A DNA stretch of 64,000 bases from positions 372,001 to 436,000 of the forward strand of contig JABUMY010000001.1 of the NCBI GenBank assembly GCA_013327885.1. Reading direction: 5' to 3'. The first letter of the stretch is position 1, and every line of letters starts with the position of its first letter. Below the pieces are notes generated by a model, which did not search any database, was not told the origin of the DNA, and saw nothing but the letters and a program-made list of their open reading frames with translations. Of the stretch, positions 2,221 through 61,710 are shown in pieces. The translations under genes and the position numbers were made by a program. Source of the stretch: Flavisolibacter longurius. GTDB lineage: Bacteria; Bacteroidota; Bacteroidia; Chitinophagales; Chitinophagaceae.

Positions 2221-2260
2221 AGCTTGTAGCTTGCAGCTCATAGCTCATAGCTTACAGCTT
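2221..2260. repeat. Word-array repeat based on tagct
   Basis: A degenerate tandem of words around agct(c/t)atagct fills the 40 bp before the ruvB start. Because agct is self-complementary, the array can pair with itself. It belongs to the word-array class described in the findings. Confidence 0.6.
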
Positions 2261-2268
2261 CTCTCATT

Positions 2269-3312
2269 ATGGCAAATCCAAATTTACAACCAGCAAAAGA
2301 CGACCTTTCACCAACGGAAAAGGAGTTTGAAAACGGCATCCGGCCCAAGCAGATCGAAGATTTTTCCGGGCAACCGCAGATCATCGAAAACCTCCGCATT
2401 TTTATCAAGGCGGCCAAAATACGGGGCGAAGCCCTGGACCATGTGCTTTTTCACGGTCCTCCCGGTTTGGGAAAAACAACCCTGTCCCGGATCGTTGCCA
2501 ATGAAATGGGTGTTAGCATTAAAGAAACGTCAGGACCGGTGATTGAAAAACCCGGTGACCTGGCAGGCCTGCTGACCGGCCTGCAACCCAACGATGTGTT
2601 GTTCATTGATGAAATTCACCGGCTTAGCACCGTGGTGGAAGAATACCTCTACTCCGCCATGGAAGATTATAAGATCGACATCATGATCGACAGCGGACCC
2701 AATGCCCGCAGCATACAGATCAACCTGTCGCAGTTTACGCTGATTGGCGCTACCACCCGCAGCGGTTTGCTCACGGCGCCACTGCTTTCGCGTTTCGCCA
2801 TCAAATCACGGTTAGAATACTACGATGCCGAAACCCTCAAGCGCATCATCCTGCGGTCTGCCCAAATCTTAAATGCAGAAATTTCTACCGATGCTGCCGG
2901 GGAGATCGCCCGTCGCAGTCGCGGTACGCCGCGTATTGCCAACGGCCTTTTGCGCCGCGTTCGCGATTTTGCGCAGGTGCTTAACGACAGTACCATTGAC
3001 CTTGGCATAACCCAGCATGCGCTGCGTGCCCTGAACGTGGACGAGCACGGGCTGGACGAAATGGACAACCGCATACTTGCAGCTATCATCGAAAAATTCA
3101 AAGGTGGCCCCGTGGGTATCACCACCATCGCTACCGCTGTTGGCGAGGAAGCCGGCACGCTGGAAGAAGTGTACGAGCCTTTCCTTATCCAGGAAGGATT
3201 TATCATGCGAACGCCAAGAGGCCGCGAGGTCACCGCAAAAGCGTATGCGCATCTGGGTAAGAACCCGCCCCTGCAGGGAGCAACGGGTAATTTGTTTGGG
3301 GGATTAGCGTGA
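2269..3312 (+). CDS. ruvB: Holliday junction branch migration helicase RuvB
   Basis: RuvB is the AAA+ motor that, with RuvA, drives branch migration of Holliday junctions in recombinational repair. The 347-residue length is typical. Walker A is GPPGLGKTT at residues 63-71, Walker B is VLFIDEIHR near 115, sensor 1 lies in [12 protein letters not shown], the arginine finger lies in [14 protein letters not shown], and the C-terminal winged helix contains [15 protein letters not shown] and [15 protein letters not shown]. ruvA and ruvC are not in the window. The ATG at 2269 gives the expected N-terminus ending in [11 protein letters not shown]. Confidence 0.98.
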
Positions 3313-3319
3313 GGAAGAA

Positions 3320-3418
3320 GTTGATAAGTTGAATGGTTAATAAGTTAATGGGTGAATAAGTAATTTGTTAGTTTGCTTTTCAACATATTAACCTATCAAC
3401 TTTTCAACCTATTAACCC
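3320..3418. repeat. Paired-arm word repeat (tcaacctattaac family)
   Basis: The left arm (about 3320-3352) and right arm (about 3383-3418) are reverse complements over roughly 30 nt. Most of the few differences are C/T or A/G changes, many of which keep G.U pairing in one transcript. The element fills the gap between the convergent ruvB and GNAT genes and could act as a two-way terminator. Confidence 0.7.
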
Positions 3419-3421
3419 TCC

Positions 3422-3850
3422 CTACAACTCCTTTTCCATCACATAATGCGGAATGGTGATCTCGAGGAATTCGTCACCGATCTTTTTGTAACCCATCTTT
3501 TCGTAAAAGCCAATCGCATTTTTCCGGGCATGCATGGTAATACGATGGTAACCCCGGTCACGGGCCAGGTTTTCGGCAAACTGCATCAGGGCCCGGCCAA
3601 TGCCTTTGCCCTGCACATCGTTTACAACAGCCATTTGCCGCAGCCGCACGGTCTCCGGGTCTTCTTCCACCAGCATACAGCAGCCCAGCATCTGGTCGTC
3701 TTCAAAAGCGGCCATGTGCATGTGGTTTTTTTCGGTTTCCAACTCGTCTTGCGAAAAATCCAGTCCCAGGGGTTTGCGCAAAATATTGTTGCGCAACGTT
3801 AGCATCTGCTTGTATTCTCTGGTGCCGTAGTCGATAATCTTTAACGCCAT
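3422..3850 (-). CDS. GNAT family N-acetyltransferase
   Basis: A 142-residue single-domain GNAT enzyme, which transfers acetyl from acetyl-CoA to an amine. The acetyl-CoA pyrophosphate loop is clear: RLRQMAVVNDVQGKGIGRAL, with the Q-G-K-G-I-G signature near residues 80-85. It is followed by the beta5/alpha4 region ITMHARKNAIGFYEKMGYKK. The substrate cannot be predicted. It is transcribed convergently with ruvB and has no operon partners. Confidence 0.9.
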   Translation of the reverse strand: MALKIIDYGTREYKQMLTLRNNILRKPLGLDFSQDELETEKNHMHMAAFEDDQMLGCCMLVEEDPETVRLRQMAVVNDVQGKGIGRALMQFAENLARDRGYHRITMHARKNAIGFYEKMGYKKIGDEFLEITIPHYVMEKEL

Positions 3851-4093
3851 GAAAAATGGGTTGTCGTCTTCAATTGGTACAAATATCCGTTCTACCGGTC
3901 AAATCACCTTTCGTTCGACGCATTTTTTTGCAGCAAAGCAAGTTTTCTTTCGGTTTAATGTAATAACGATCCAAATCTTTCCCATGTTTGAATTTTGTAA
4001 TAACTACCCCTTTTGGTGTTTACAACAGGTGTGAAAGCATGGGTGCAAACCATGAATGTGCGAAACTGTTTTAGGGTTGTTTAGGATGGACAG

Positions 4094-4122
4094 TTGTTTT
4101 TTTCAGAAAACCTATATTTTTG
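4094..4122 (+). promoter_or_regulatory. acpP promoter (Bacteroidota sigma-A type)
   Basis: TTG at 4094-4096 and TATTTTTG at 4115-4122 match the -33 and -7 elements with an 18 nt spacer. The predicted start is near 4126, leaving a leader of about 23 nt before acpP. Confidence 0.7.
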
Positions 4123-4148
4123 CACCACTATAACCAAATTTTTACAAT

Positions 4149-4385
4149 ATGTCAGACATTGCAGCAAGAGTAAAAAAGATCATCGTTGATAAGCTGGGCG
4201 TTGATGAAGCGGAAGTAACGAATGAAGCTTCTTTCACCAACGATTTAGGCGCCGACTCGCTGGATACTGTTGAACTGATCATGGAATTTGAAAAAGAGTT
4301 CAACATCTCTATCCCGGATGAGCAAGCCGAAACCATCACTACCGTTGGTCAAGCTGTTTCTTACCTTGAAGAACACGCAAAGTAA
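4149..4385 (+). CDS. acpP: Acyl carrier protein
   Basis: A 78-residue acidic protein that carries growing acyl chains on 4'-phosphopantetheine during fatty acid and lipid A synthesis. The modification site is the serine of [15 protein letters not shown], near residue 37. It lies directly upstream of fabF, the usual arrangement, with a terminator hairpin and a separate fabF promoter between them, so the two can be expressed at different levels. Confidence 0.98.
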
Positions 4386-4417
4386 TTACCGTTCTGCTAT
4401 AGAACTTAATAACAAAT

Positions 4418-4452
4418 CCGCCTTCATGTTCTTGTAACGGAAGGCGGTTTTA
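4418..4452 (+). terminator. Terminator after acpP
   Basis: ccgccttc at 4418-4425 pairs with gaaggcgg at 4440-4447, followed by tttt. It probably lets acpP be transcribed in excess of fabF. Confidence 0.8.
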
Positions 4453-4462
4453 TCTTTACAGC

Positions 4463-4483
4463 GAAGCCTGGAGTCCAGGCTTC
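4463..4483. repeat. Short perfect hairpin
   Basis: gaagcctgg and ccaggcttc form a perfect 9 bp stem over a 3 nt loop. There is no T run on either side, so it is unlikely to be a terminator by itself. Confidence 0.5.
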
Positions 4484-4521
4484 AAAAGCAAAAAGTCAAA
4501 AAGCTGGTTTACTATTGACGA

Positions 4522-4551
4522 TTGCTTGTGAACTTTGCCTTTTTACTTTTG
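4522..4551 (+). promoter_or_regulatory. fabF promoter
   Basis: TTG at 4522-4524, a 19 nt spacer and TACTTTTG at 4544-4551, a full match to TAnnTTTG. The -7 box ends 11 nt before the fabF ATG, so the leader would be about 8 nt. Confidence 0.65.
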
Positions 4552-4562
4552 ATTTATATACT

Positions 4563-5837
4563 ATGAGTGCTGGAAAAACGATTGAACTGAAACGGGTAGT
4601 GGTAACCGGTATGGGCGCCCTTACACCCCTCGGAAATACGATAGCGGAGTATTGGGACAACTTACGGAATGGTGTTAGCGGCTGTGATTTTATCACCCTG
4701 TTTGATGCATCGAAGTTCAAAACCCGTTTTGCCTGCGAAATAAAAGGATTTGACCCTACCAGCGTTTTAGACCGCAAAGAAGCCCGCAAGCTCGACCGCT
4801 TTTCGCAAACCGCCATTGCGGCTTCGGACCAGTGCATGCTGGATGCCGGCATCAACAAAGACAATGTGGATGTTGACCGTGTTGGTGTTGTACTGGGTTC
4901 GGGAATTGGCGGACTGATTACCTTCCAGGAAGAAGTGATGAATTTTGCCAAAGGCGATGGAACGCCCCGTTTCAATCCTTTCTTTATCCCAAAGATGATC
5001 CTGGACATTGCGGCCGGGCACATCTCTATGCGCCATGGTTTTCGCGGCCCCAACTTTTCGGCCGTAAGTGCCTGCGCCTCCAGCACCAATGCCATGATGG
5101 AAGCCTTTAACCTTATTCGTATGGGCAAGGCCGATATTATTGTTACCGGCGGATCGGAAAGTGTGATCAGCGAAGCCGGCGTGGGTGGCTTTAATGCCAT
5201 GAAAGCACTTAGCGAACGCAACGACGATCCTAAAACCGCCAGCCGTCCGTACGACAAAGACCGCGATGGTTTTGTGATGGGCGAAGCAGCCGGTGTACTT
5301 GTTTTTGAAGAATACGAACACGCCAAAAGGCGCGGTGCCAAAATCTATTGCGAGATTGGCGGTGCCGGCGCTACGGCCGATGCGCACCACCTCACTGCCC
5401 CGCATCCCGAAGGGTTGGGCGCCAAGAACGTGATGATGCGTGCCCTGGAAGATGCCGAAATGAAGCCGTCCGATATCGACTACATCAACACACACGGCAC
5501 CTCTACGCCGTTGGGTGATGTGGCCGAGATCAAAGCCATTATGGATGTATTTGGCGAGGATGCGTATAACCTCAATATTTCTTCTACCAAGTCCATGACA
5601 GGCCACTCCCTCGGAGCTGCCGGAGTGATTGAAGCCATTGCCTGCATCATGGCCGTACAGCACAACGTAGTACCGCCTACCATTAACCATTTTACCGACG
5701 ACCCGGAAATTGACCCCCGTCTGAACTTTACGTTTGGCCAGGCGCAAAACAGAACCGTACGGGCAGCACTGAGCAATACCTTTGGCTTTGGAGGTCACAA
5801 TGCCTGTATGATTTTCAAAAAGTATGTGGCGGGTTAA
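4563..5837 (+). CDS. fabF: Beta-ketoacyl-ACP synthase II
   Basis: FabF condenses malonyl-ACP with acyl-ACP to lengthen fatty acids. The 424-residue protein has the thiolase-fold Cys-His-His triad: C171 in VSACASSTNAM, H311 in NTHGTSTPLGD and H348 in MTGHSLGAAG, plus K343 in STKSMTGH. I choose ATG 4563, giving MSAGKTIELKRVVVTGMG; a longer reading from 4515 would start inside the promoter. It sits between acpP and rnc. Confidence 0.97.
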   Translation: MSAGKTIELKRVVVTGMGALTPLGNTIAEYWDNLRNGVSGCDFITLFDASKFKTRFACEIKGFDPTSVLDRKEARKLDRFSQTAIAASDQCMLDAGINKDNVDVDRVGVVLGSGIGGLITFQEEVMNFAKGDGTPRFNPFFIPKMILDIAAGHISMRHGFRGPNFSAVSACASSTNAMMEAFNLIRMGKADIIVTGGSESVISEAGVGGFNAMKALSERNDDPKTASRPYDKDRDGFVMGEAAGVLVFEEYEHAKRRGAKIYCEIGGAGATADAHHLTAPHPEGLGAKNVMMRALEDAEMKPSDIDYINTHGTSTPLGDVAEIKAIMDVFGEDAYNLNISSTKSMTGHSLGAAGVIEAIACIMAVQHNVVPPTINHFTDDPEIDPRLNFTFGQAQNRTVRAALSNTFGFGGHNACMIFKKYVAG

Positions 5838-5879
5838 GTGAGCGCAGTTGTGCTATTGAATTAATCTTTATTTTCATTT

Positions 5880-6614
5880 GTGGACTTTTGGAAATCACTT
5901 TATAAAAAAGACAGCAATCCATCCTTTAAGAAAAACTTGAAAGGCGTACTGGGATTCTCACCTGGTAATGTTTCTCTTTACAAAACAGCGCTTACGCATC
6001 GTTCCGTTAAGGATCGTATCGACGAAAACAACGAACGCCTGGAGTACCTGGGCGATGCCATCCTGAGTGCACTGGTGGCCGACTATCTTTTCAAACGTTA
6101 TCCTTACAAGGGCGAAGGCTTTTTGACCGAGATGCGCAGCAAGATGGTGAACCGCCAGCAACTCAATGACATTGCGCTGAAGATGGGACTGAAAAAAGTT
6201 ACGGCTTTTAATAAATCCGATGCTTCGCTCAAAAGCAGCCAGATCTTCGGTAACACATTGGAAGCCCTGGTGGGTGCCGTGTACCTCGACAGGGGCTATA
6301 AGAAAACCGCCAAGTGGGTGGCCGATCACATCCTGATGCCGCACATGTTCATGGACGACCTGGAGAACCTGGAGATCAATCACAAGAACCGGTTATATGG
6401 CTGGGCCAACAAAAACGGCAAAAACCTGGAGTTTGAAACCGTGGATGAAAAGCTGGAGAACGGCAGGCGCCTGTTTACCATTGCGGCCGTTATCGACGGG
6501 AAATCCATTGCACAGGGAAAGGCTTTCAACAAAAAAGATGCTTCGCAAATTGCCGCCCAAAAGGCCGTGGAAAAACTGGGCATCGTTGATTCGAACAGCG
6601 TAGGGGAGATGTGA
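5880..6614 (+). CDS. rnc: Ribonuclease III
   Basis: RNase III cuts double-stranded RNA, mainly during rRNA maturation. Residues 1 to about 155 are the nuclease domain with the signature NERLEYLGDAILSALVADYL, and an acidic pair typical of the active site lies in EALVGAVYLDRGY. Residues 165-235 are the dsRNA-binding domain ending DASQIAAQKAVEKLG. The start is GTG at 5880. It follows fabF by 42 bp, probably in the same transcript. The many long hairpins in this chromosome would be natural substrates. Confidence 0.95.
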   Translation: MDFWKSLYKKDSNPSFKKNLKGVLGFSPGNVSLYKTALTHRSVKDRIDENNERLEYLGDAILSALVADYLFKRYPYKGEGFLTEMRSKMVNRQQLNDIALKMGLKKVTAFNKSDASLKSSQIFGNTLEALVGAVYLDRGYKKTAKWVADHILMPHMFMDDLENLEINHKNRLYGWANKNGKNLEFETVDEKLENGRRLFTIAAVIDGKSIAQGKAFNKKDASQIAAQKAVEKLGIVDSNSVGEM

Positions 6615-6757
6615 GGACGGGAAACGAAGAACGTCAAACGTGAGACGTGAGACGAGAGATGTGAAACCGTAGCGGCAGTTTATTTTCAATTCGCATTACT
6701 TACCGGTATTGGCTGTTCAACTCGTGAACAAGTGAACTTGTAAACTTGTGAACTTTC
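6612..6757. repeat. Word-array repeats (gtgagacgtgaaac and gttcac families)
   Basis: Two arrays fill the gap between the convergent rnc and transporter genes. 6612-6668 holds degenerate copies of cgtgagacg/gtgaaacg, and 6716-6757 holds copies of cttgtgaact. They show no obvious complementarity to each other. Confidence 0.55.
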
Positions 6758-6765
6758 TCCCGAAA

Positions 6766-7383
6766 TCAGTGCAGGAAGAACGTGACAATTCCCGCTAGTA
6801 TCAGCACCGCTCCGCTGATCTTTTTTTCGTTGTGTTCGATAAATTCGGCCGGCAGCAGGTCAACCCCTTTGATACCGAGGCTTACCAGCAGCCAGATGCC
6901 TAAAATGCTGATGACGGCATACGTGCCGGCCAGCGAAAACACGGCGCCCATACCAAACGCACCGGCCGAAAGAAACAGGCTTTCCACCTCGAGACAGGGC
7001 GAAAGAAACATCATCCCTACAAAGATCCAGATCCATTTTTGCTTTGAGCGTTTGTACTCCTGCACATCTTCCTGTGTGCTGTGATGGTGGTGCGGCAGGT
7101 TGACTGTAAAATAGATCAGTCCAAACGCAATCAGCAAAACAGCCGTTGCTACATTGATGGAATGCCCGTACTCTTCCTTCAATTCTTTCCCAATCAGTCC
7201 CAGGATAATTCCGAGGATAACCGTTCCCGTGACATGCGCTGCTGCCGCTAACAAGGTAACCGTCGTGATCTCTTTCTTCTTCCAGCCTTCGGCCTTGGCC
7301 ACAGCCACCAGGGGCAGCCAGTGATTGGGAATAAGCGCATGCACGGCAGCAAGAACAATGGTGGCAGTTAAAAGACTTAGCAT
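6766..7383 (-). CDS. NicO/UreH-like metal transporter
   Basis: A 205-residue inner membrane protein with about six hydrophobic helices. The first helix carries HALIPNHW (H15, H21), resembling the His-containing motif of the NicO/RcnA and UreH group of nickel/cobalt transporters. A cytoplasmic HHHH (98-101) adds metal-binding capacity, and a Cys-Glu pair lies in FLSPCLEVE. It follows an AraC-type regulator on the same strand, separated only by a repeat element. Family placement is by motif only; the metal and direction of transport are unknown, and a TauE- or DsbD-related exporter is an alternative. Confidence 0.6.
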   Translation of the reverse strand: MLSLLTATIVLAAVHALIPNHWLPLVAVAKAEGWKKKEITTVTLLAAAAHVTGTVILGIILGLIGKELKEEYGHSINVATAVLLIAFGLIYFTVNLPHHHHSTQEDVQEYKRSKQKWIWIFVGMMFLSPCLEVESLFLSAGAFGMGAVFSLAGTYAVISILGIWLLVSLGIKGVDLLPAEFIEHNEKKISGAVLILAGIVTFFLH

Positions 7384-7530
7384 GGTGAATGGTGAATGGT
7401 CAGTGGTGAGTAGGTTTCCTTCATCTCAGTTTTCTTTACGTAAACGGCCGGCAAGGTACTGACTATGCGTGTTATGACTGTTATAAAATGAAAGATCAAA
7501 CTCACCACTGACCACTCACTACTCACTATC
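7381..7530. repeat. Paired-arm word repeat (actcacca family)
   Basis: Left arm 7381-7413 and right arm 7497-7530 are reverse complements: 26 of 30 compared positions match and the other four are A/G changes. The element spans from the stop codon of the AraC gene (7526-7528) to the start codon of the transporter (7381-7383), so its arms share bases with both. A transcript crossing it could form a stem of about 30 bp. Confidence 0.8.
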
Positions 7531-8455
7531 TGAGCAGCAGTTCACAAGGCTTCAGCCCTGTATACTTTTTAAACGCGGTGGAAAAATGCGAGATAGAGGA
7601 ATAACCCAAAAGGGAGGAAACTTCGGTAACGGAAATGCCTTTTTCGTACAGGAGAAATTTGGCGTGTTCCATTCGCTGGCTTTGGTAGAACTCAAAGATG
7701 GTGGTGCCAAACATTTCCTTGAAACCTTTTTTCAGGTAACATTCATTCATGGCCACCTTGCGGCTTAATTGCTTGATGGTAATGGGTTCGCCAATGTGCT
7801 GCAGCAGCACTTCACGGGCCTTGGCTACTTTGTCGCGGTCCGACTCATTGTTCAAAAACTTGCAGGTGATCACATTCAGCGCCTTTTCGTCCATGCAGTC
7901 GAGGCTGTGGAGAAGCAGCATCTGCGTTTGCGCCGTTACAAAAATATTTTCAAGACTGCCGCTGTAGTTATGATTGAGCAGGCCTTCCAGCACCATGCGG
8001 GTGCGGCCGCAAAGACTTATGGTACGTGAAAACGAACTGTTGTACTGAAACGACAGCACTTTTTCGTAGAGCGGCTGTCCATCGAGCTGCTGCTTTACAA
8101 ACTGCTCCAAAAGCGTTGACGAAAAAGCAAACGAGATAAAATCAACCGTTTCTACTTTCTCTACACAGTTATGGCTTTCGTTGGCTTTGCAGTGATTGCA
8201 CTCGTAGCGAAACTTGGTGCAATACATATTGCCAACAAGGCAAAACCGAAGCTCGATGTAATTATTCTCTGGTTTGGAGGCGTTGTACTGGTAAGAAAGC
8301 TGGCCCTGCTCATCGCCCATCCACGTGGCTGGTTTGGCAAAACGCTTGATGGAATAATGCAGGGAGCCCGCAATATGACGGCTTTCCTCATACAGCACAG
8401 ACGTGGTGAGGCTTGCAGCGGCTGCCATAATTTCGGACGTAACGGATCGTTGCAT
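7526..8455 (-). CDS. AraC-family regulator with a cysteine cluster
   Basis: A 309-residue transcription factor. The C-terminal 100 residues are a typical AraC double helix-turn-helix (ITIKQLSRKVAMNECYLKKG and VTEVSSLLGYSSISHFSTAF). The N-terminal sensing half contains C72, C79, C86, C89 and C97, with C79-x6-C86-x2-C89-x7-C97, which could hold a metal ion or iron-sulfur cluster. I chose ATG 8455 (MQRSVTSEIM) over a start six codons upstream. The metal-transporter-like gene directly downstream fits a metal-responsive pair, but that is inference. Confidence 0.85.
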   Translation of the reverse strand: MQRSVTSEIMAAAASLTTSVLYEESRHIAGSLHYSIKRFAKPATWMGDEQGQLSYQYNASKPENNYIELRFCLVGNMYCTKFRYECNHCKANESHNCVEKVETVDFISFAFSSTLLEQFVKQQLDGQPLYEKVLSFQYNSSFSRTISLCGRTRMVLEGLLNHNYSGSLENIFVTAQTQMLLLHSLDCMDEKALNVITCKFLNNESDRDKVAKAREVLLQHIGEPITIKQLSRKVAMNECYLKKGFKEMFGTTIFEFYQSQRMEHAKFLLYEKGISVTEVSSLLGYSSISHFSTAFKKYTGLKPCELLLR

Positions 8456-8569
8456 GCGGGCACAAAAATACAACCAACATCCGTGCAGGCGAAAAAACCT
8501 CTCTCACAGCAATGTCATTTTTAGAAGGTTATAACAGTTCATTCTGCGTTTCTCAATGGAAGGTTCTTA

Positions 8570-8599
8570 TTTGTTGAGCCGAATTGTTTCATACTTTCG
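8570..8599 (+). promoter_or_regulatory. Promoter abutting the lpxC/fabZ start codon
   Basis: TTTG at 8570-8573, an 18 nt spacer and TACTTTCG at 8592-8599 (one base off TAnnTTTG). The box ends 4 nt before ATG 8604, so transcription should begin at or beside the start codon. Confidence 0.6.
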
Positions 8600-8603
8600 C
8601 CGC

Positions 8604-13775: not shown

Positions 13776-13854
13776 AAAGTTCACTTGTTCACACGTTCAC
13801 GGGTTCATAAGGTGGCTTCAATAACGTGTGAACCTGTAAACTTTTGAACGTTTA
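13776..13854. repeat. Paired-arm word repeat (gttcacnn family)
   Basis: Left arm 13776-13808 (words gttcac) and right arm 13824-13854 (words gtgaac) are roughly 70-75 percent complementary across a 15 nt loop. The right arm ends 5 nt before the copA start codon, so the hairpin would lie in its leader. Confidence 0.65.
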
Positions 13855-24044: not shown

Positions 24045-25018
24045 TGAAGCCTTTACGCATTGGAACAAGAGACAGCCAGCTGGCTGTGTGGCAGGCTACA
24101 CGGGTGCAAAGCCTGTTGCAGGAAGCCGGTGTTGCCTCGGAGCTGGTGTACATGAAAAGTGAAGGTGATATTGATACCGTCACACCGTTGTATGCCTTGG
24201 GTGTGACCGGCGTTTTTACCAAAACCCTTGATGCTGCCCTGCTCAATAACCGCATTGACATTGCCGTACATTCGATGAAAGACGTGCCTACGCAACTGGC
24301 GCAAGGCATTCAACAGGCAGCCGTTTTAGAAAGAGCTTCGCACAAAGACATACTAGTTTATAAAGACGAATCGACGCTGCAAAGCCTCGGCTTCCTAAAT
24401 GGTGAATGGTCGATGGTGAACGATGCTTCATTCACTACTCACCACTCACCACTCACCATTGCCACCGGGAGTATTCGCCGCGTAGCGCAATGGCTGCATC
24501 GTTACCCGAACCACCGCACCGAAAACCTTCGGGGCAATGTCAATACACGCCTGCGCAAATTGGCTGAGAGTGATTGGAACGGCGCCATCTTTGCGGCAGC
24601 TGGGTTGGAGCGTATCCATCTGCGTCCGGAGAAATCCATAGATCTTGACTGGATGTTGCCGGCGCCTTCGCAGGGTGCCATTATGGTGGTGTGCCGGGAA
24701 GGCGACAAAGAGGCTTTCGATGCCTGTCAATCGTTCAACGATGAACCTACAGAACTTTGCACAAAGCTTGAAAAAGATTTTTTACGTGTATTGATGGGCG
24801 GTTGTTCAACACCGATTAGTGCGTTGGCAGAATGGAAGGGTGAGACCGTTTCTTTCCGCGGAAATATTTGCAGCCCTGATGGAAGTGATTTAGTAGAAGT
24901 GAAGCTGGAAAAAGCGGGAAGCGAAAGCCTGCAGCTTGGTGAAGAAGCCGCAAGACAATTGCTGGATGATACCAAAGCCCAACACATCATTCAAACGGTT
25001 CGGAATGGAAAAGCCTGA
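24044..25018 (+). CDS. hemC: Porphobilinogen deaminase with an in-frame repeat insertion
   Basis: HemC joins four porphobilinogens into hydroxymethylbilane. The 324-residue protein has GTRDSQLAVWQA, HSMKDVPTQL, TGSIRRVAQWL and the dipyrromethane cofactor cysteine in LMGGCSTPISA. Residues 119-139 are extra compared with the family; they are encoded by an imperfect hairpin of the actcacca word family that stays in frame, placed between LVYKDESTLQSLG and ATGSIRR. Some homologues have variable loops there, so activity is probably kept. It overlaps hemA by 1 nt and hemD by 14 nt. Confidence 0.96.
   Translation: MKPLRIGTRDSQLAVWQATRVQSLLQEAGVASELVYMKSEGDIDTVTPLYALGVTGVFTKTLDAALLNNRIDIAVHSMKDVPTQLAQGIQQAAVLERASHKDILVYKDESTLQSLGFLNGEWSMVNDASFTTHHSPLTIATGSIRRVAQWLHRYPNHRTENLRGNVNTRLRKLAESDWNGAIFAAAGLERIHLRPEKSIDLDWMLPAPSQGAIMVVCREGDKEAFDACQSFNDEPTELCTKLEKDFLRVLMGGCSTPISALAEWKGETVSFRGNICSPDGSDLVEVKLEKAGSESLQLGEEAARQLLDDTKAQHIIQTVRNGKA
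24399..24460. repeat. Word-repeat hairpin inside hemC
   Basis: The left arm (atggtgaatggtcgatggtg) pairs with the right arm made of three copies of actcacc at 24436-24458. 19 of about 23 positions match. It is a coding copy of the family seen at 7381-7530. Confidence 0.75.
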
Positions 25019-29400: not shown

Positions 29401-30374
29401 TACTACAAAGACGTCCCCGTATTCTCCGCACCACACCAGCCATTCGCAGTTTGGTGGCGGAAACCATTTTAACACCAAATGATTTTATCGTTCCCCTGTT
29501 CATTGATGAAGGGGAGAACGTAAAAACAGAAATTGCTTCGATGCCGAATTATTTCCGCAACAGTGTAGACAATACGGTAAAGGAAGTAAAAGAATTGTGG
29601 AGCATGGGCATTAAAAGCGTTTTGCTTTTTATCAAGTGCAAAGACGAGTTAAAAGACAATACCGGCAAAGAAGCCTGGAACCCGGGTGGCCTAATGCAAC
29701 GTAGCATCAAAGCCATTAAAGATGCCGTGCCAGACATGTATGTCATGACTGATGTGGCATTGGATCCTTTTTCATCATACGGCCATGACGGCATTGTAGA
29801 GAATGGCGAAATTGTGAATGATGCAACGGTAGAAGCATTGGTGAAGATGAGCATTTCCCATGCGGAAGCCGGTGCCGATATGGTAGCGCCCAGCGATATG
29901 ATGGATGGTCGCATTGGCGCCATTCGTGAGGGGCTCGAGGGCAGTGGTTTTACCAAGGTGGGCATCATGGCCTACAGCGCCAAATATGCCTCCTGTTTTT
30001 ACGGACCCTTTCGCGATGCGCTGGACAGTGCACCGGGCTTTGGTGATAAGAAAACCTACCAGATGGATTATGCCAACCGAACCGAAGCGGTAAAAGAAGC
30101 CCTGATGGATGTGGAAGAAGGCGCTGATATTGTGATGGTGAAACCTGGCCTGCCTTACCTTGATATTGTGCGGGATGTAAAAAATGCCGTGGATGTTCCC
30201 GTTAGTGTGTACAACATCAGCGGCGAATACGCCATGATCAAAGCCGCGGCAAAAATGGGTTGGATCAATGAAGAAAAAGCAATTTTAGAAACACTCACGT
30301 CGATGAAAAGAGCAGGAGCCGATTTGATTGCCACCTATTTTGCAAAAGACGCAGTTCGATTGTTAAACCACTAA
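29397..30374 (+). CDS. hemB: Delta-aminolevulinic acid dehydratase
   Basis: HemB joins two 5-aminolevulinates into porphobilinogen. The 325-residue protein has the two active lysines in [11 protein letters not shown] and [11 protein letters not shown]. The metal-site loop reads [15 protein letters not shown]: the zinc-binding cysteines are replaced, so this is the non-zinc type that often uses magnesium or potassium. Its start overlaps the toxin gene stop, and its last codons (AACCAC plus stop) form part of a repeat arm. Confidence 0.96.
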
Positions 30375-30440
30375 GACATGGAGGCGCAAAGATGCACGAA
30401 GAACGATGTGTTTCTTTGTGTCTTTCTGCCTTTGTGGTTC
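30363..30440. repeat. Paired-arm word repeat (cacaaaggca family)
   Basis: The left arm begins in the last codons of hemB (near 30363) and the right arm (about 30404-30440) ends 14 nt before hemL. About 26 of 39 compared positions pair, and eight of the mismatches are transitions. Words are variants of cacaaagg/cgcaaaga. Confidence 0.65.
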
Positions 30441-43162: not shown

Positions 43163-43440
43163 GTCCTGTTTTCAAAAGAGACGTTTGTTAGCAGGAATTG
43201 GGTCAGCAATATTTGTCTCGAGGATTTGAAATTGTGCTGATGCTTTGCAAAACATTTTTCAATGTTTATTTCGTTGAAAATGAACCGGGGCAAGGGTTTG
43301 GGAAGAGGGTTACTAAAAAATGTGGAAAGTACGCATAGGAAATCTGGCCGAGAGTTGTATTTTTACCTCGGTTTTTCATAGGATATTGGATTTTAAAACG
43401 GGGCAGGATTTCTATCCAGCCCTTTTTCTTTTTAGCCCCG

Positions 43441-43811
43441 GCCCCCTGTCCCCAGTGGGGCACTTAGGTCGATTTTTCATTTCATTTAGCAACGATACGT
43501 TAGGTTATGGAACAGGACACGCTTCAGCGTGTCCTGTTTTTCTTTCAAGAGGTGACATATCATTTTCTCACTGCGCAGCAGTGAGGAATGGTCGCACGGA
43601 GCAAAGGAGAAAAGGAGGATTTGATTTCTGTTTTTTTGTTTTCCTATTGACTATTGCAAATTGACATTAACCGATCGCCTACTCTCCTTTTCTTCTTGGC
43701 TCCGTGTGAAATAAAAAAGCTGGCTAGCCAGCAAAAAACTATTCTCCCATCGAAAAATTGCAGAAGTAAACGTCTCACCAGCCTAAGTTCCCCCACCGGG
43801 GGACAGGGGGC
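43441..43811. repeat. Nested paired-arm repeats between gldN and uvrC
   Basis: Outer arms: 43441-43463 and 43789-43811 share a 13 nt perfect complement (gccccctgtcccc) followed by gtgggg. Inner arms: 43595-43617 (cacggagcaaaggagaaaag and three more bases) and 43685-43707 pair at 21 of 23 positions. The right outer arm lies inside the last codons of uvrC. Confidence 0.75.
43512..43541 (+). terminator. Perfect hairpin with T run
   Basis: acaggacacgc pairs perfectly with gcgtgtcctgt over ttca, followed by tttttc. It could end any transcript that passes the gldN terminator, or belong to the repeat. Confidence 0.6.
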
Positions 43812-45606: not shown

Positions 45607-45703
45607 AAAATCTTAGTTCACAAGTTCCCAAGTCCACACGTTCACAGGTTGGGCAGAAATGCCCTTTTTACCTATCAACCTGTTAACGTATCAACTTACC
45701 TCT
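45606..45703. repeat. Word arrays (gttcac and tcaacctgtta families)
   Basis: Between uvrC and the lipoprotein gene: 45610-45650 holds gttcacaag-type words and 45674-45700 holds atcaacctgttaacgtatca, with a small hairpin gggcagaaatgccc between them. Confidence 0.55.
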
Positions 45704-46291
45704 TTACCGGTTCTGGCCTTCAAAACCATTCCAAACTACCTGCAGCTTTTTTGTTTGCTGTGTTCCGCCGGTTTCTGCCACCGTCGTTACCTGGAAGTTT
45801 TTGCCCGATTCCCAAAGCATGTTCTTCCGAACAAGTGTATCGCCATTGGTTTGCCAAAGCTCCACAAAAATAGACTGAATATCGTTCTTTCCGGCCGCAT
45901 TGGGCGCAGGGTCCAGTACCACATCTTCGCGTTTTACGGGGTGATCTTCATTGGTAGTGAACATAAAGACAAACGCATCAAGAATGTCGTCGTAATTGTG
46001 GGTTACCTGGTAATCCTTTCGCAGGTCATCGGTGCTGATATCAGGTAGGGTGGCAAAATCGCGGGCATACCGTTTTACATCAGCGTTTCGGATGGGAACC
46101 GTGTCGCTGACATCACCAACGGTTTCAATTTTGTAAAAAGTGGCCAGCGACGTGTCCAGTCTGGCCAGCTCACCCTTGATATAATCGGTTACAGGGAAAA
46201 ACTGTTCTGCCGTAACCTCCGGTGTTTTGTTTTTGGCTTTACAACCAGGCAGGAAAAAGAAGCAAAGGAAAATAGAAAGGAATCGGGTCAT
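45704..46291 (-). CDS. Hypothetical lipoprotein
   Basis: A 195-residue exported protein with a lipoprotein signal (SIFLCFFFLPGCKAK, C17 acylated). The mature part is mixed alpha/beta, with many charged residues, and no motif I recognise. It is on the same strand as the barrel protein and sigma factor upstream, 84 bp apart. Its function is unknown. Confidence 0.75.
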   Translation of the reverse strand: MTRFLSIFLCFFFLPGCKAKNKTPEVTAEQFFPVTDYIKGELARLDTSLATFYKIETVGDVSDTVPIRNADVKRYARDFATLPDISTDDLRKDYQVTHNYDDILDAFVFMFTTNEDHPVKREDVVLDPAPNAAGKNDIQSIFVELWQTNGDTLVRKNMLWESGKNFQVTTVAETGGTQQTKKLQVVWNGFEGQNR

Positions 46292-54822: not shown

Positions 54823-54858
54823 ACCGGGATTTTTGGGATGGATGGGATTTGTTGGATT
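54823..54858. repeat. Word-array repeat (gggatttgttggat family)
   Basis: A 36 nt array of gggatt/tggat words (ccgggatttttgggatggat and following) starts at the nadC stop and ends before the next gene. Confidence 0.5.
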
Positions 54859-54876
54859 TTAATTTAAATGCAAACA

Positions 54877-55224: not shown

Positions 55225-55226
55225 GG

Positions 55227-55361
55227 GAGAGTAGACAGTGGGATAGTAGGATATTGAGATATTATGGCCAATAAAAAAAGGCTTCGAGTAACAACTTGAA
55301 GCCTTTTTATTAAAAGAAAAATATCGACTATTCAATATCCTACTATCCCACTGTCTCACTC
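55227..55361. repeat. Paired-arm word repeat around a terminator (tactatccca family)
   Basis: The arms contain a 24 nt perfect inverted repeat: 55234-55257 against 55332-55355. They enclose the bidirectional terminator and run from the stop of the SUI1 gene almost to the stop of icd. Confidence 0.9.
55273..55312. terminator. Bidirectional terminator between SUI1-family gene and icd
   Basis: aaaaaggcttc pairs with gaagccttttt over a 12 nt loop, with A/T runs on both sides, so it serves both convergent genes. Confidence 0.88.
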
Positions 55362-55368
55362 ACTTCTC

Positions 55369-56820: not shown

Positions 56821-56941
56821 AATGAACTATTTGAGGTTATGTTGCCGCAAAAATAGGCTTTGATAGAGCGTGATTTCCACAAAAAACAACCGGACAGATT
56901 TGTGGCAACAACTTTGTTTTACATTTAGCAAAAATCATATC

Positions 56942-57328: not shown

Positions 57329-57396
57329 TACCGCAACGAATTGTTGTAAGGCATTTGCTTGCAAAGGCAGTGTACAGATTCTTCTCCAAAGATGGC

Positions 57397-57427
57397 AACG
57401 CAATTGGAAACGCCAGTTGCGTTTATG
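57397..57427 (+). terminator. Weak terminator after apaG
   Basis: aacgcaattgg pairs with ccagttgcgtt (one G.T), loop 5 nt, followed only by ttt. Termination would be weak. Confidence 0.5.
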
Positions 57428-57517
57428 TCCGTAGTAATTTTTTCCTACTGTTCTGTAAATAGGTTTATCTCCGTAGTTCTATAACTTCTCCCTTTCTTAA
57501 TTTCAGCCGCTATCCGC

Positions 57518-57525
57518 TTATTTTG
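57518..57525 (+). promoter_or_regulatory. -7 box abutting the vanZ-like gene
   Basis: TTATTTTG, a one-base-shorter form of TAnnTTTG (TAnTTTG), ends 4 nt before the ATG. Predicted leaderless. Confidence 0.4.
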
Positions 57526-57529
57526 CAGC

Positions 57530-57886
57530 ATGCTCCAAAAAATTGCCCGCATTCGCATGTTGCCATCTCTTTGGCTTTTTGTTATCACCGTATTGTTTCT
57601 GTTGCCTGGCTCGGCCCTGCCCAAGTCAGAAATGATCATCCCGCATTTTGACAAATATGTACATTTTGGTTTTTTTGCCGTGCTGCTTTTTTTGTGGCGC
57701 TTTCAGTTTGGCGCTGCACTAAAGTTTTCAGTTTTGTTGTTGCTACTTGCCTTTGCTTATGGAATGGGCATAGAAATCATACAGCATTATTTGATCGCAA
57801 ACCGATCATTCGATATGGGCGACGTGTGGGCTGACATGGCCGGTGCAGTAGCCGGTGTTTTCGCTTGGGTGTATATAAAAAAATAG
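57530..57886 (+). CDS. VanZ-family membrane protein
   Basis: A 118-residue protein with four membrane helices: LWLFVITVLFLLPGSALP, then the family motif DKYVHFGFFAVLLFLW, YGMGIEIIQHYLIANRSFD and MGDVWADMAGAVAGVFAW. VanZ-like proteins are widespread small membrane proteins; a few give teicoplanin resistance, but most have no known role. A short hairpin follows the stop. Confidence 0.85.
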   Translation: MLQKIARIRMLPSLWLFVITVLFLLPGSALPKSEMIIPHFDKYVHFGFFAVLLFLWRFQFGAALKFSVLLLLLAFAYGMGIEIIQHYLIANRSFDMGDVWADMAGAVAGVFAWVYIKK

Positions 57887-58231
57887 ACCCCTGTAGAAAC
57901 AGGGGTCGCAACCAAAACTAACTGCTTATGAGAAAATTGACTGCTTTATGTGAGAAGAACTATCTTTTATAGAGCAAAATTGCTGCCAATTATTTTAATT
58001 CATTTGTTAAGAAATTCTAAAACCGCTTTTGTCGTTTTTAGAACCTGTAAAGAACTATTATAAACATAATAAATAACGTGCCAGAATCAAAATTTGGCGG
58101 AAAGAAAAAAGCAAATTCACTCTTCGTGACGTTTTTCTGACAAATTGTTTTTGTTGTATAAATCTTATTGCTAAATCGATTGAAAATAAAAATGAGGAAA
58201 CGGTGAAATTTTCTACACAGCCATTCCTCAG
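57887..58231. other. Intergenic region with a perfect hairpin and a micro-ORF
   Basis: In this 345 bp gap gacccctgt (57889-57897) pairs perfectly with acaggggtc (57902-57910) around agaa; the minus strand has a T run after it, so it could terminate prfA transcription some 320 nt downstream. On the plus strand, ATG 57928 starts a 14-codon frame, MRKLTALCEKNYLL. The rest is AT-rich with no recognisable feature. Confidence 0.5.
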
Positions 58232-59296
58232 TTAGTTCTGCTTTGCCATTTTTTCTGCATTCTCGGCAAACTGCAAGGCATCCACCAATTCATCAATAAA
58301 CCCGTTCAGCACTTCCTGCAGGTTGTAAAGGGTAAGGCCGATCCGGTGATCGGTTACACGTCCCTGTGGAAAATTGTACGTACGGATCTTAGCGCTGCGG
58401 TCGCCGGTGCTCACCAGGCTTTTGCGGTGACGTGAAATTTCCTCTTCCTGCTTGCGCACCTGTTCTTCGTAAAGGCGTGTCCGCAACATTTGCATGGCTT
58501 TTTCGCGGTTGGCCAACTGCGTACGCTCTGTTTGGCAAACCACAACCGTACCGGTGGGAAGGTGGGTCAGCAAAACCTTTGTTTCTACCTTGTTCACGTT
58601 CTGACCACCGGCGCCGCCGCTTCGGGCCGTTTCCATTTTTACGTCGCTGTCCTTTAATTCAAAATCAATTTCTTCAGCCTCCGGCATCACGGCTACCGTA
58701 GCTGCACTGGTATGTACACGGCCGCTGGTTTCGGTGTCGGGTACACGCTGTACACGGTGCACGCCGCTTTCAAACTTCATGGTGCCGTACACATCATCTC
58801 CCACCACTTCAATCTGTATCTCCTTGTAACCACCAACGGTGCCTTCGGTTTCCGAAAGGATGCTTGTTTTCCAGCCCTTGCGTTCGCAATAGCGCATGTA
58901 CATGCGGGCCAGGTCGCCGGCAAAAAGACTGGCCTCATCGCCACCGGTACCGGCACGGATCTCAAGAATAGCGTTCTTTTCATCCTGCGGATCTTTGGGG
59001 ATCAGCATCTGGCGAATCACGCTTTCCATTTTGGTGAGCTTTTCTTCAGCTTCCGGCAGCTCGGCCTTGGCCAGCTCCCGCATTTCTTCGTCGGATCCAT
59101 TTAAGGCCTCGCGGTAAAAGGCCACATCATCAATCAGTTTTTTATAGTCGTTGTGCGCCAGCACAATCTTTTCGAGACTCCGGTACTCTTTGGAGAGTTG
59201 CCCGAATTTTTTATTATCGGCAATGATTTCAGGGTTGGTCAGGGCCACGCCAAGATCGTCAAATCGGGCTTTGATGGCTTCCAGTTTATCCAGCAT
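58232..59296 (-). CDS. prfA: Peptide chain release factor 1
   Basis: RF1 ends translation at UAA and UAG. The 354-residue protein has the catalytic GGQ loop in [17 protein letters not shown], the stop-codon region with the PxT-type motif ([20 protein letters not shown]) and the N-terminal coiled domain. ATG 59296 ([14 protein letters not shown]) is preferred over 59332. No prmC neighbour is seen. Confidence 0.97.
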
Positions 59297-59313
59297 ACAT
59301 AAAATTAGAGCCG

Positions 59314-59321
59314 CAAATGTA
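59314..59321 (-). promoter_or_regulatory. prfA -7 box
   Basis: TACATTTG on the minus strand, a full TAnnTTTG match, 17 nt before the prfA ATG. Confidence 0.5.
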
Positions 59322-59357
59322 AACTTTGCCAAACGAATAAGACGTTAAGAAGCGGCG

Positions 59358-59365
59358 TATTTTCG
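59358..59365 (+). promoter_or_regulatory. -7 box abutting the amidohydrolase gene
   Basis: TATTTTCG, one base off TAnnTTTG, ends 5 nt before ATG 59371. Predicted leaderless. Confidence 0.4.
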
Positions 59366-59370
59366 GGCCG

Positions 59371-60648
59371 ATGAAAACCCGTAAACTTGCTGCCCCTCTC
59401 ATTTTTGACGGTTACCGTTTTGTAAAAGACAAGGTTCTAGTGTTATCCGAAGATGGCGTTGTTGAAGACCTGCTGCCGGCCGCTGCTGCCGGCGATGCTA
59501 TAGAGATGTATGACGGAATTCTTTCGCCGGGATTTATCAATTGTCATTGCCATCTTGAACTGAGCCACATGCGGGGAAAAATTCCTGAGGGGACAGGGCT
59601 GGTGGATTTTGTTTTTAAAGTGGTGACGGAACGTTCGGCTTCGGATGAGGAGATCGCTACGGCAATTGAAGAAGGGGAAAAAGAAATGATCCGCAACGGG
59701 ATTGTTGCCGTTGGTGATATTTGCAATACCAATACAACGCTGGCGCAAAAGCAAAAACGGAATCTTTTTTATTACAATTTTATCGAAGCCAGCGGCTGGC
59801 TCCCGGCAGGCGCCCCCGTCCGTTTTCAAGCGGTAAAAAACCTATACGATGAATTTGCCAGCCAATTAACACCAAACACAAAACACCAAACCCCAAACCT
59901 TTCCCTGGTGCCCCATGCACCTTACTCTGTTTCCGAAAATTTATGGACAGCCCTGCAACCTTTTTTTAGCGGGAAAGTAGTTTCCATTCACAACCAGGAA
60001 ACGCGTTTTGAAGATGAATTTTTTCTGCAGGGAACGGGTGATTTCCAACGGATGTACAGCCTGATGAAGATTGACAACAATCATCACCAGCCCACAAAGC
60101 GCAGCAGCCTGCAATCGTATTTTGAAAAATTGAAAGGCGCTGCCAACGTGATTCTTGTGCACAATACCTTCACCAAAGAAGAAGACGTTGTTTATGTCAA
60201 ACGCGAAACGGCAAACGACAGAGGAGAAACGTTAAACGGGAGAGAGGAAAGCTTTAAACCGCAAGCCGCCAACAGCGAACATCGAACCTTAAACATCAAA
60301 CATCGAACTTCAAACCCCCAAACCTTTTTCTGTCTTTGCGTGAACGCCAACCAATACATTGAAAAGGCTTTGCCGCCAGTAGAAATGCTGCGGCAGCAAG
60401 GCGCCAATATTGTGTTGGGCACCGACAGTCTTGGCAGCAACTGGAGCCTGAATATCGTGGATGAGATCAAAACGCTGCGAAAACATTTTCCGCAAATACC
60501 GCTCGAAGAAATGCTGACCTGGGCTACAAGCAATGGGGCCAAAGCATTGGGTATTGATGGCAGGCTGGGAAGTTTTGAAAAAGGAAAAAAGCCAGGTGTG
60601 GTTGTGCTTGCGGAAGCGGAATTGGTGGTAGATCGTGTTTTGGGATAG
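59371..60648 (+). CDS. Amidohydrolase-family protein with repeat-derived insertions
   Basis: A 425-residue metal-dependent hydrolase of the chlorohydrolase/deaminase group. Metal ligands are in [20 protein letters not shown] and [11 protein letters not shown]; a typical terminal motif is [20 protein letters not shown]. The substrate is not evident; guanine, adenosine or S-adenosylhomocysteine deaminases are relatives. Two segments are not family-like: residues about 164-176 ([10 protein letters not shown]) and about 277-320, both encoded by word arrays that stay in frame. Confidence 0.85.
59865..59900. repeat. Word array inside the amidohydrolase gene (caccaaac family)
   Basis: Four degenerate copies of acaccaaac (from taacaccaaacacaaaacac) encode about a dozen extra residues, in frame. 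Confidence 0.65.
60205..60330. repeat. Larger word array inside the amidohydrolase gene
   Basis: The first half has gaaacg/gttaaacg words like those at 6612-6668; the second half has aacatcaaacatcgaacttc words. Together they encode about 42 extra residues, all in frame. Confidence 0.65.
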
Positions 60649-60796
60649 TTCAAAAGTTCACGGGTTCACGGGTTCACAAGTTTGTTCTGCTTGTGCTTAG
60701 TGGAACCTCCCCTCGCTATTTATACATAATCATGCTTCTATACGCATTTACAACTGACCACTCGCCACTCACCACTCACCACCCATCACTCACCAC
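60649..60796. repeat. Word arrays between the amidohydrolase gene and recO
   Basis: 60651-60682 holds three copies of gttcacgg, and 60752-60799 holds six copies of actcacca/actcgcca running into the end of recO. The two families are different and do not pair with each other. Confidence 0.6.
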
Positions 60797-61534
60797 TCAA
60801 CTCATTACTTCCCGCAATACCGGCAGGGTGCGTAATGTTCCAAATTCCGGTATGTGAAACGCATAATACTGCTCAATGGCATGCGTAATGCGGCGGCGTA
60901 CTTCCTGGTTCAAAAACACCTGCTCCAGTTCCTGCGGCTGCATGATCTTTAAGATATCGGAAACAGCAGCGGCCTCCCTATCCAGCAGGTAAAACTGGTG
61001 CTGCGGTTGCTGCGCCGTGAACTGTCCTTCCTGCAGGTCGAGGTAGTGTTTTTCGTCTGAAAATTCATCGCTGACGCGAAAGCCGAAAAATACGGCCAGG
61101 TGCAGCGCAAAAAACAGCGGAAAGTTTCCGGTCACGGCTTCGTTGGCACTGTCAAGATGATGCAATGCATCTTCTACAAAATAAAAAAGATCGGGGTTTG
61201 GTTCGGGTTGTTTCAGGCATTTGGCTAGCAGTTCTACCATAAAAAGCGCAACGGCATTTTTGCGCACATCAGAAAGTACATGCTGGTATAAAAAATCCCA
61301 TTTGTATTCCCGCAGGCGCTGCAGCTTGTTGAAATCGTTGTGGTAAGCCACCAGTTCAAGGATGGATGCTGGCTGAAAGAACGTAGCTTTTGCACTGCCT
61401 TTTTTACTGGCCTGCCGCACCCCGTTCACCAGGTAAGACTGCACACCAAAAAGCTCTGTAAAAATGGTGACGATAAGCGATGTTTCGCCGTATTTGACGG
61501 AGCGGAGAACAATGCCTTTTGTTTTTTGGATCAT
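60797..61534 (-). CDS. recO: DNA repair protein RecO
   Basis: RecO helps load RecA onto single-stranded DNA in the RecFOR pathway. The 245-residue protein has the N-terminal OB-fold pattern KGIVLRSVKYGETSLIVTIF and SYLVNGVRQASKKGSAKATF; the C-terminal half is helical and lacks an obvious four-cysteine zinc site. It is downstream of the PorZ-like gene on the same strand, an arrangement I believe is common in Bacteroidota. Confidence 0.92.
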   Translation of the reverse strand: MIQKTKGIVLRSVKYGETSLIVTIFTELFGVQSYLVNGVRQASKKGSAKATFFQPASILELVAYHNDFNKLQRLREYKWDFLYQHVLSDVRKNAVALFMVELLAKCLKQPEPNPDLFYFVEDALHHLDSANEAVTGNFPLFFALHLAVFFGFRVSDEFSDEKHYLDLQEGQFTAQQPQHQFYLLDREAAAVSDILKIMQPQELEQVFLNQEVRRRITHAIEQYYAFHIPEFGTLRTLPVLREVMS

Positions 61535-61543
61535 GATTTTAGC

Positions 61544-61710
61544 GGTTCACAAATTCACTTGTTCACGAGTACACAAGTTACGTGTAAAGCAGGGGAAAGG
61601 CTGATTTTAAGCTGGTAGATTCTTCTTAAAATTTGCGTTGCATCCGGTTAGAGAAACGTTCGTTTTTTTCATCGGAAACTTGTGAACTTGTAAACCGTGG
61701 ACGTGTGAAC
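61544..61710. repeat. Paired-arm word repeat (gttcacnn family)
   Basis: Left arm 61544-61583 and right arm 61676-61710 are roughly three-quarters complementary with one gap. The pair fills the gap between porZ and recO; the right arm ends 5 nt from the porZ stop. Confidence 0.65.

Follow-up and report, generated by a model that had tools for sequence, protein, structure and literature searches.

Outward-reading arrays of 7- and 8-nt words form hairpins at gene borders, and exchange their words, in Flavisolibacter longurius and relatives

The window examined here is a 64,000-nucleotide (nt) stretch of the genome of Flavisolibacter longurius (family Chitinophagaceae; assembly GCA_013327885.1, contig JABUMY010000001.1, positions 372,001 to 436,000). 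In the gaps between its genes it carries short arrays of degenerate 7- or 8-nt words, several of which face an inverted copy of the same word and form a hairpin. In this genome and its relatives the arrays keep their period, neighbouring arrays stand in inverted order, each word has one polarity, words recur in families, orthologous slots switch from one word to another, and single copying events are visible. We give roughly an even chance to the reading that these are dispersed non-coding palindromic elements, copied as DNA and tolerated where they do the least harm. The process is open to direct testing by sequencing strains of one species, as in one closely related pair of genomes words have been replaced at the same slots between flanks that are 91% identical. 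The elements also alter proteins, as seen in hemC.

Arrays repeat at 7 or 8 nt regardless of the word

The window is part of contig C11 in a 5.75 Mb assembly (genome G000), which was compared with the relatives G003, G006, G007 and G009 and with the closely related pair G183 and G184. The UvrC protein encoded in the window shares 94% identity with that of F. longurius and 92% with that of F. nicotianae. Nineteen arrays of period 7 or 8 were found in the window, against 0, 0, 0, 1, 0, 0, 0, 1, 0 and 0 in ten dinucleotide shuffles. The original prediction, made from the letters of the window, had placed arrays in paired arms at 15 or more places; the arrays were confirmed, and the paired arms proved fewer. 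Ungapped inverted arms scoring at least 12 were present in 6 of the 39 gaps (0.15 per set of shuffled intergenic sequence), and in four gaps they reached at least 14 (none in shuffles). About nine hairpins are obtained if looser, gapped partners and self-folding arrays are included (3318-3417, 7376-7534, 13776-13844, 24398-24458, 30366-30439, 43592-43709, 45630-45697, 55229-55361 and 61545-61710). One of the six arm-bearing gaps (11512/11531) holds an ordinary terminator-like stem without words. The strongest arms, at 55233/55332, pair at 25 of 25 positions ungapped and at 32 of 32 in a longer alignment. Arrays without a partner, or opposite another word, lie at 2220, 6623/6719 and 60647/60750.

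When intergenic tandem segments were scanned over 456 kb of C11 at lags 3-20, 36 segments were found at lag 7 and 11 at lag 8, with 25 and 9 at the doubled lags 14 and 16, 0-2 at the remaining lags and none in shuffled gaps. Twelve further lag-7 segments fall in stretches called coding; the gene calls were crude choices among open reading frames (ORFs) and missed hemC. The same two periods stood out in 80 uvrC loci of the bacterial family, coding DNA included (0.91 Mb; 24 segments at lag 7, 9 at lag 8, 1-5 at the other lags from 4 to 12), and the sharpest peak was seen in G183 and G184 (65 and 46 segments at lag 7, 21 and 26 at lag 8, 0-2 at the others from 4 to 13, and 0-1 after shuffling). 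The repeat unit is therefore narrower than the 7-10 nt first proposed, since only 7, 8 and their doubles are enriched on C11, and it is the same whatever the word. Two of the word families first listed drop out: gggattt corresponds to a single 9-nt array of another dispersed family, and the score of the cacgaattt arm pair (22531/22662), 8, does not exceed the mean of 8.2 obtained from shuffles.

A looser count on C11 gave 81 arrays across 57 of 263 gaps. Arrays were present in 67 of 126 gaps in G183 and 53 of 114 in G184, both sampled as pieces of the genomes, and the occupied share ranges from a fifth (67/305) to a half (67/126) of gaps. At least ten word families were found in a single genome, and the suggestion that unrelated words share one architecture is both correct and general. 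A triple GTTCAC pattern was found in 5 of 147 genomes of the bacterial family and its reversed control in none. An ACTCACC search of G000 (up to two mismatches) returned 128 forward and 118 reverse matches; its control is uninformative, because reversing the pattern yields almost the same repeat again. At C11:21255-21349 an array of about 12 near-perfect AGTTTGT units, much longer than most, is possibly a length-variable locus.

Inverted order, outward polarity and placement

Neighbouring arrays of the same word within a gap were inverted in 44 cases against 3 in G183 and in 34 against 2 in G184 (together 78 against 5). Among arrays with a neighbour in the Flavisolibacter samples, 77 of 95 matched that neighbour better in inverted orientation, and 113 of 245 arrays had an inverted partner scoring at least 12 in their own gap (6 after shuffling). 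The own partner was the top match for just 19 of the 95, because common words match many foreign arrays.

Each word reads outward from the adjoining gene, at the start or the stop of the gene alike. Orientation followed the side of the gap in 202 of 235 comparisons between paired arrays, 430 of 558 between paired and unpaired ones and 189 of 278 between unpaired ones, and in 447 of 621 comparisons in G183 and 301 of 369 in G184, all of these being comparisons of like words in different gaps that are not independent of one another. Single 5-mers were similarly one-sided (outward to inward: GTGAG 77:2, TGGTG 57:0, GTTCA 57:4). Among 174 arrays near one boundary, 145 were G-richer and 25 C-richer in the outward direction; GTTCAC also reads outward, and composition is therefore not the rule of polarity. 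Taken together, many words with the same period, inverted order and outward polarity indicate that the cause cannot lie in any single word, such as a quadruplex or a regulator site.

The arrays hug the gene edge, with a median distance of 5 nt in gaps of 100-200 nt compared with 21 nt under uniform random placement. In G000 they occupied 36 of 101 convergent gaps and 10 of 103 divergent ones. The convergent bias was weak in G183 and G184 (17/28 and 13/25 convergent against 13/28 and 10/24 divergent gaps).

Orthologous slots switch words while their flanks persist

Syntenic gaps of relatives were compared side by side, and the alignability of their centres was judged by eye. In the gap at 61535 the window shares the word GTTCAC, on both sides, with G009 and G003, and in G006 both arms consist of GTTTACC (period 7) around a centre that is still alignable by eye. 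At 55225, G006 and G009 retain the terminator and the arms around it, the latter altered, and the hairpin of G007 is built from another word; at 3313 G006 carries an unrelated hairpin. Two loci that are 88.8% identical over 10 kb (L059 and L063) differ in one gap by carrying the word AATAACTG in the former and AACGC/GCGTT in the latter, where the right edge still keeps a trace of the old word.

The closely related pair provided the broadest comparison. Among 103 orthologous gaps of G183 and G184, arrays were present in both genomes in 45, in one only in 8 and 2, and in neither in 48, and the flanking gene ends were 91.2% identical. Nine clear word switches were identified by eye (36738, 45029, 73836, 76381, 85839, 126162, 131094, 133515 and 179858). 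In the 23 gaps with measurable word arms, defined strictly as arms lying at least 60% within arrays, the arms were kept in 10 and had switched or diverged in 13. Slots thus change the word in both arms while the flanks persist.

At 12 loci of Flavisolibacter genomes, similarity between arms was higher within than between species in 9 of 16 comparisons. We do not claim gradual concerted evolution from this, because the count is 9/16 only and several of the arms are terminators or other repeats. Clear cases of concerted change are 3313, 61535 and, in G007, 55225. As a separate observation, the gap C11:467225-467423, hairpin included, is ~97% identical between G000 and G006, and the neighbouring syntenic DNA ~82%.

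Shared arms and single copying events

At the locus L264 all 39 of 39 arm positions pair around a loop of 5 nt, making a perfect palindrome. Its left arm takes in the stop codon that closes a 267-codon open frame, and the simplest account of the other arm is a copy made at the DNA level. A published proposal has template switching form and repair stems of this sort (PMC8794818). In G183, the hairpins C3:636804 and C3:646014 are 94% identical over 79-81 nt, loop included, and G184 has TTGAGAG arms there. These two cases, together with families of shared arms, the joint switching of arms and the in-frame arrays inside two genes, support the earlier suggestion of a copying mechanism that makes inverted duplicates.

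Several families share their arms across loci. In 20 ACTCACC arms, with units counted from the apex, the first is ACTCACC in 12, the second ACTGACC in 9 and the third ACTCACC in 11 or ATTCACC in 6, and the fourth is mixed. Ten chosen GCGTT hairpins of G183 and G184 have a common core and often a common apex; elements of this word number 41 with an inverted partner, at least one of which (L232) is another palindrome, and 25 without. Exact copies of 29-35 nt of a TTTTCAA arm stand at dozens of sites in G183 and likewise in G184, among the matches listed. A composite ACGTGAG/GTTCAC element is found at four C11 loci, and a search with one copy gave 15 genome matches including itself, five others exceeding 120 nt. 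In the TTGAAAA family, 14 hand-picked loops gave 91 pairs, of which 15 lay above the 99% shuffle level, where 0.9 would be expected. One of these loops had served as the query that brought up the loci, L336 and L345 seem to be orthologues, and six loops carry almost the whole signal. TA stands at many, not all, outer ends of this family. The elements resemble miniature inverted-repeat transposable elements (MITEs) in being short, non-coding and bounded by terminal inverted repeats.

Proposed origin of the elements and alternatives

In the proposed mechanism, one element would be a hairpin with two arms of 25-40 nt, each made of four or five degenerate 7- or 8-nt units. Fold-back (template-switch) synthesis may generate or mend the arms, and slippage may lengthen them by one word per step, with loops decaying faster; one-unit slippage and fold-back repair would together hold the arms periodic and alike. 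A hairpin, read as word, loop and reversed word, is unchanged by inversion, so hairpins that spread as wholes would give each word a single polarity whichever way they were inserted. Lone arrays would be hairpins that lost one arm and still point outward. Survival would be expected at gene edges and in pliable parts of proteins, where harm is smallest.

Several observations weigh against copying of whole elements as the general explanation. Among 95 masked loops, no pair within a genome matched at E <= 1e-3, in a search whose choice of arms also missed the C3:636804/C3:646014 pair, and a separate search with masked arrays gave few matches between loops. As most loops are unrelated, it is only for a few families that spread as a unit is shown. 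Examination of the Y1 transposases revealed no mover; no clean boundary between empty and filled sites was seen that could show a target duplication, and none was found. Unpaired arrays keep their polarity too, which the model explains only by arm loss, and the polarity comparisons share the non-independence mentioned above. Finally, arms were more conserved than loops between G183 and G184, which could mean selection: identity was 0.944 in arms and 0.794 in loops of the ten same-word elements, a contrast that is inflated because these loci were chosen by arm identity, and 0.911 and 0.743 in an earlier, looser set of 14 loci, some of them terminator stems. Gaps without arrays were 0.811 identical.

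A bolder version is possible, and we put it forward tentatively. The elements may form an undescribed class of mobile palindromes in which replication measures 7-8 nt: a dedicated enzyme or a reaction at the fork would turn any short word into hairpins and sow them outward at gene borders, with new words displacing old ones at the same slots. One generator might then lie behind the heptamer repeats that have been described word by word. The proposed class would span at least the Bacteroidota and, from printed accounts, the gamma-proteobacteria and cyanobacteria.

Slippage alone, in which repeats grow where the polymerase slips, local template switching inverts them and nothing moves between loci, would account for the sharp 7/8 period, for words that drift along an array (C33 286625-286713) and for the mostly unrelated loops. 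It also agrees with a published idea, cited in the excerpts of PMC4679880 and PMC4692102 considered here, that 7 nt corresponds to the polymerase contact. However, arms common to many loci, loops common to some and one polarity per word would be unexpected for independent local growth, which makes this explanation unlikely.

It is likewise unlikely that the words are sites read by a DNA- or RNA-binding protein, with polarity and arm conservation reflecting a function at gene borders. Such sites would fit the polarity, the better conservation of arms than of loops and the closeness to gene edges. They fit poorly with a genome that has at least ten word families, with the swapping of words at orthologous slots, with arrays in a fifth to a half of all gaps and with in-frame copies inside genes.

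A role of the folded RNA, as RNase III substrate, 3'-end protector or two-way terminator under selection, would agree with the convergent enrichment in G000, with the arms that flank terminators at 55229 and C11:341012, and with terminator-like sites being rarer in co-directional G000 gaps with arrays (8/55) than without (39/140). Tests of pairing did not favour it. Arm differences had been described as mostly transitions that often keep G.U pairing; in 68 paired elements transition-type differences made up 186 of 370 arm mismatches and so do not predominate, and the remark on G.U carries no weight because a mismatch of this type is by definition a G.U on one strand. On the transcribed strand of co-directional gaps, 57 G.U stood against 53 A.C (p = 0.78). 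Between G183 and G184, the ten same-word elements showed 17 one-sided breaks, 13 one-sided restorations and no two-sided change that kept pairing, the pairs having been defined in G183, which biases the test towards breaks. Counts were 48 broken, 21 restored and 13 two-sided over all 23 loci, switched ones included, and 35, 14 and 1 in the looser set. Gaps with mixed words are unable to pair at all, and no Rfam match reached the gathering score in the window. Selection on RNA fold as the main force was therefore rejected, given the equality of G.U and A.C and the lack of two-sided compensation in the ten same-word elements of the two genomes.

Two-way terminators that replace others in convergent gaps found no support either. 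Terminator-like sites were similarly frequent in G000 convergent gaps with arrays (15/25) and without (25/40), and in those of G183 and G184 together (11/21 and 13/19). They were not clearly rarer in co-directional gaps of G183 and G184 with arrays either (9/57, compared with 8/40 without). Overall, an RNA role of one of the three kinds is improbable.

Least probable are REPIN-like elements (repetitive extragenic palindromic, or REP, doublets forming hairpins) moved by Y1 transposases of the RAYT (REP-associated tyrosine transposase) type: the doublets are inverted and intergenic, Y1 matches occur in 6 of 6 genomes searched (eight in G000) and the Y1 gene L294 (G184:C7:596598) lies between inverted AATAATTG-word arrays (1362-1393 and 2123-2156), but Y1 genes (L289, L295, L304, L307, L309, L311 and relatives) are mostly flanked by palindromes of their own kind, e.g. 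GCCCGAAGGGC, and not by the repeat in question as a RAYT gene would be, and word arrays were present in 5 of 15 transposase loci inspected, on both sides of the gene only in L294, which can be chance because about half of the G184 gaps hold arrays (53/114).

Elements of the window

The individual elements of the window are given below with their strand, where one applies.

2220..2260, + strand: single AGCTYAT array, period 7; a shorter version stands at the orthologous place of G006.
3318..3417: hairpin of the word GTTGATAA/TTAACCTA, period 8, between convergent genes; the G006 gap has a GGCAATN/CCATTGC hairpin instead.
6623..6664, + strand: ACGTGAG array (7), the left part of the composite dispersed element.
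6719..6755, - strand: GTTCAC array (8), outward from the right gene, the inner part of the composite element at 6623; its G006 counterpart additionally retains an outer TCTCACGT-like arm.
7382..7411, + strand: left hairpin arm GGTGAATGGTGAATGGTCAGTGGTGAGT (7); GGTCAGT, unit 2 from the apex, recurs at other loci.
7500..7528, - strand: right arm ACTCACCACTGACCACTCACT, partner of 7382..7411; the G006 arms match over 28-29 nt.
13776..13853: GTTCAC hairpin (8) between TACCTTTG, which we take to be a promoter-like motif, and the start codon of a P-type ATPase; missing in G006, and present in G009 with a different loop.
24398..24458: GGTGAAT/ACTCACC arrays within hemC.
30366..30439: weak hairpin spanning the border of a gene, paired at 23 of 32 arm positions, with the 8-nt array CTTTNTGT at 30409-30436.
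43592..43709: CACGGAGCAAAGGAG arms, belonging to another dispersed family that has a related copy at C11:178956-179066.
45615..45708: 8-nt-word hairpin lying between a stop codon and the start of uvrC; in G009 and G007 the gap is 16-18 nt and array-free.
54826..54859, + strand: lone 9-nt GGGATTTNT array, member of another dispersed family (CTGAACCGGGATTT).
55229..55361: hairpin between convergent genes, enclosing a terminator; built of the 8-nt word GGATATTN and paired at 32 of 32 arm positions.
59868..59899, - strand: AACACCA array, in frame in an amidohydrolase gene.
60199..60324: ACG-type then AACATCG-type arrays, in frame in the amidohydrolase gene.
60647..60682, + strand: GTTCAC array (8), left side of a two-word gap.
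60750..60799, - strand: ACTCACC array (7), right side of the 60647 gap, which is empty in G006.
61545..61710: GTTCAC hairpin (8) whose arms enclose a centre upstream of recO.

Most of these elements lie between genes, where all had been placed originally; the exceptions are 24398-24458 in hemC and 59868-59899 and 60199-60324 in the amidohydrolase gene. The hemC frame (TIGR00212) measures 975 nt in the window and 924 nt in G006 and G009, and the extra 51 nt (17 codons) are the GGTGAAT/ACTCACC arrays in frame, a palindrome inside a coding gene. In the amidohydrolase gene (PF01979), one slot carries ACG, GGCAGTC or GGCAATG words in 5 of 6 genomes, as judged by eye, and the open frames measure 425 residues in the window, 405 in G006, 409 in G009, 459 in G003 and 469 in G007.

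Other repeats were noted alongside. The dispersed family CTGAACCGGGATTTNTNGGAT, with a unit of ~9 nt, is found at 54826-54859 of the window and at C11:320469 and 492884, sometimes with an inverted partner. Further dispersed repeats, CCCCTGTCCCCCGGTGGGGGAACTTAGG palindromes and CAGGACACGCTTCAGCGTGTCCTG, lie at 43460-43800 and at C11:178881-179218, 488936-489221 and 492884-493019. Beside uvrC, positions 43350-43440 hold a strongly conserved TATTTTTACCTCGGTTTTTCATAGGATATTGGATTTT, followed by the hairpin GGGGCAGGATTTCTATCCAGCCC and a T run, recognisable in 9 of 9 relatives compared; this resembles a leader or small RNA of the + strand, and gave no Rfam match.

Comparison with known systems

Dispersed degenerate heptamers are also known from cyanobacteria as short tandemly repeated repetitive (STRR) sequences. 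Searches of open-licence PMC papers by the name of the group returned no description of the present elements in Chitinophagaceae. The comparisons that follow rest on excerpts of the cited reports. In 2007 heptamers were recognised as the most frequent kind of long simple repeat in many bacteria, and an accepted cause is still lacking according to PMC4679880 and PMC4692102.

TAACTGA heptamers of Beggiatoaceae, cyanobacteria and five Bacteroidetes are likewise 7-nt repeats located between genes (PMC4679880). They differ from the present arrays in being one word, repeated directly, with a single indirect case in the main genome, and in lying mainly just upstream of start codons. Rickettsia palindromic elements, by description, resemble ours in forming several palindromic families with some copies in frame inside genes (PMC10969869), whereas they are ~150 bp long with a conserved peptide and the present ones are built of 7-8 nt words. 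In stem P6b of the Nostoc trnL intron, 7-nt words of Class I (TDNGATT) or Class II (NNTGAGT) occupy both sides of the stem (PMC4476775). The word class has been repeatedly replaced at that one slot, as at the slots described here, and NNTGAGT fits the window word GGTGAGT. The trnL case concerns one RNA locus, whereas the present words occur genome-wide in DNA, in gaps and within genes.

The closest likeness is to the intergenic heptamers GGGAATC of Xanthomonas and GGGGA(C/T)T of Nostoc, which lie close to an ORF on the outward strand (PMC4692102). The units are most often four; in Xanthomonas neighbours are often inverted (70 cases in Xcc), and divergent gaps hold fewer repeats than convergent ones. 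The present arrays share the 7-nt tandem units, about four per array, the intergenic position, the outward strand beside an ORF at either end and the inverted neighbours, and add 8-nt units, slot switching and shared hairpin arms. The published repeats consist of one G-rich word and are discussed as G-quadruplexes, while here there are many words, mostly without GGG runs, so quadruplexes cannot be the general cause. The view that no named element of this kind exists needs correcting to this extent: the Xanthomonas and Nostoc heptamers follow the same placement rule. The placement rule itself is known from these two genera; here the same rule holds with many words, and this common rule is the main interest of the elements.

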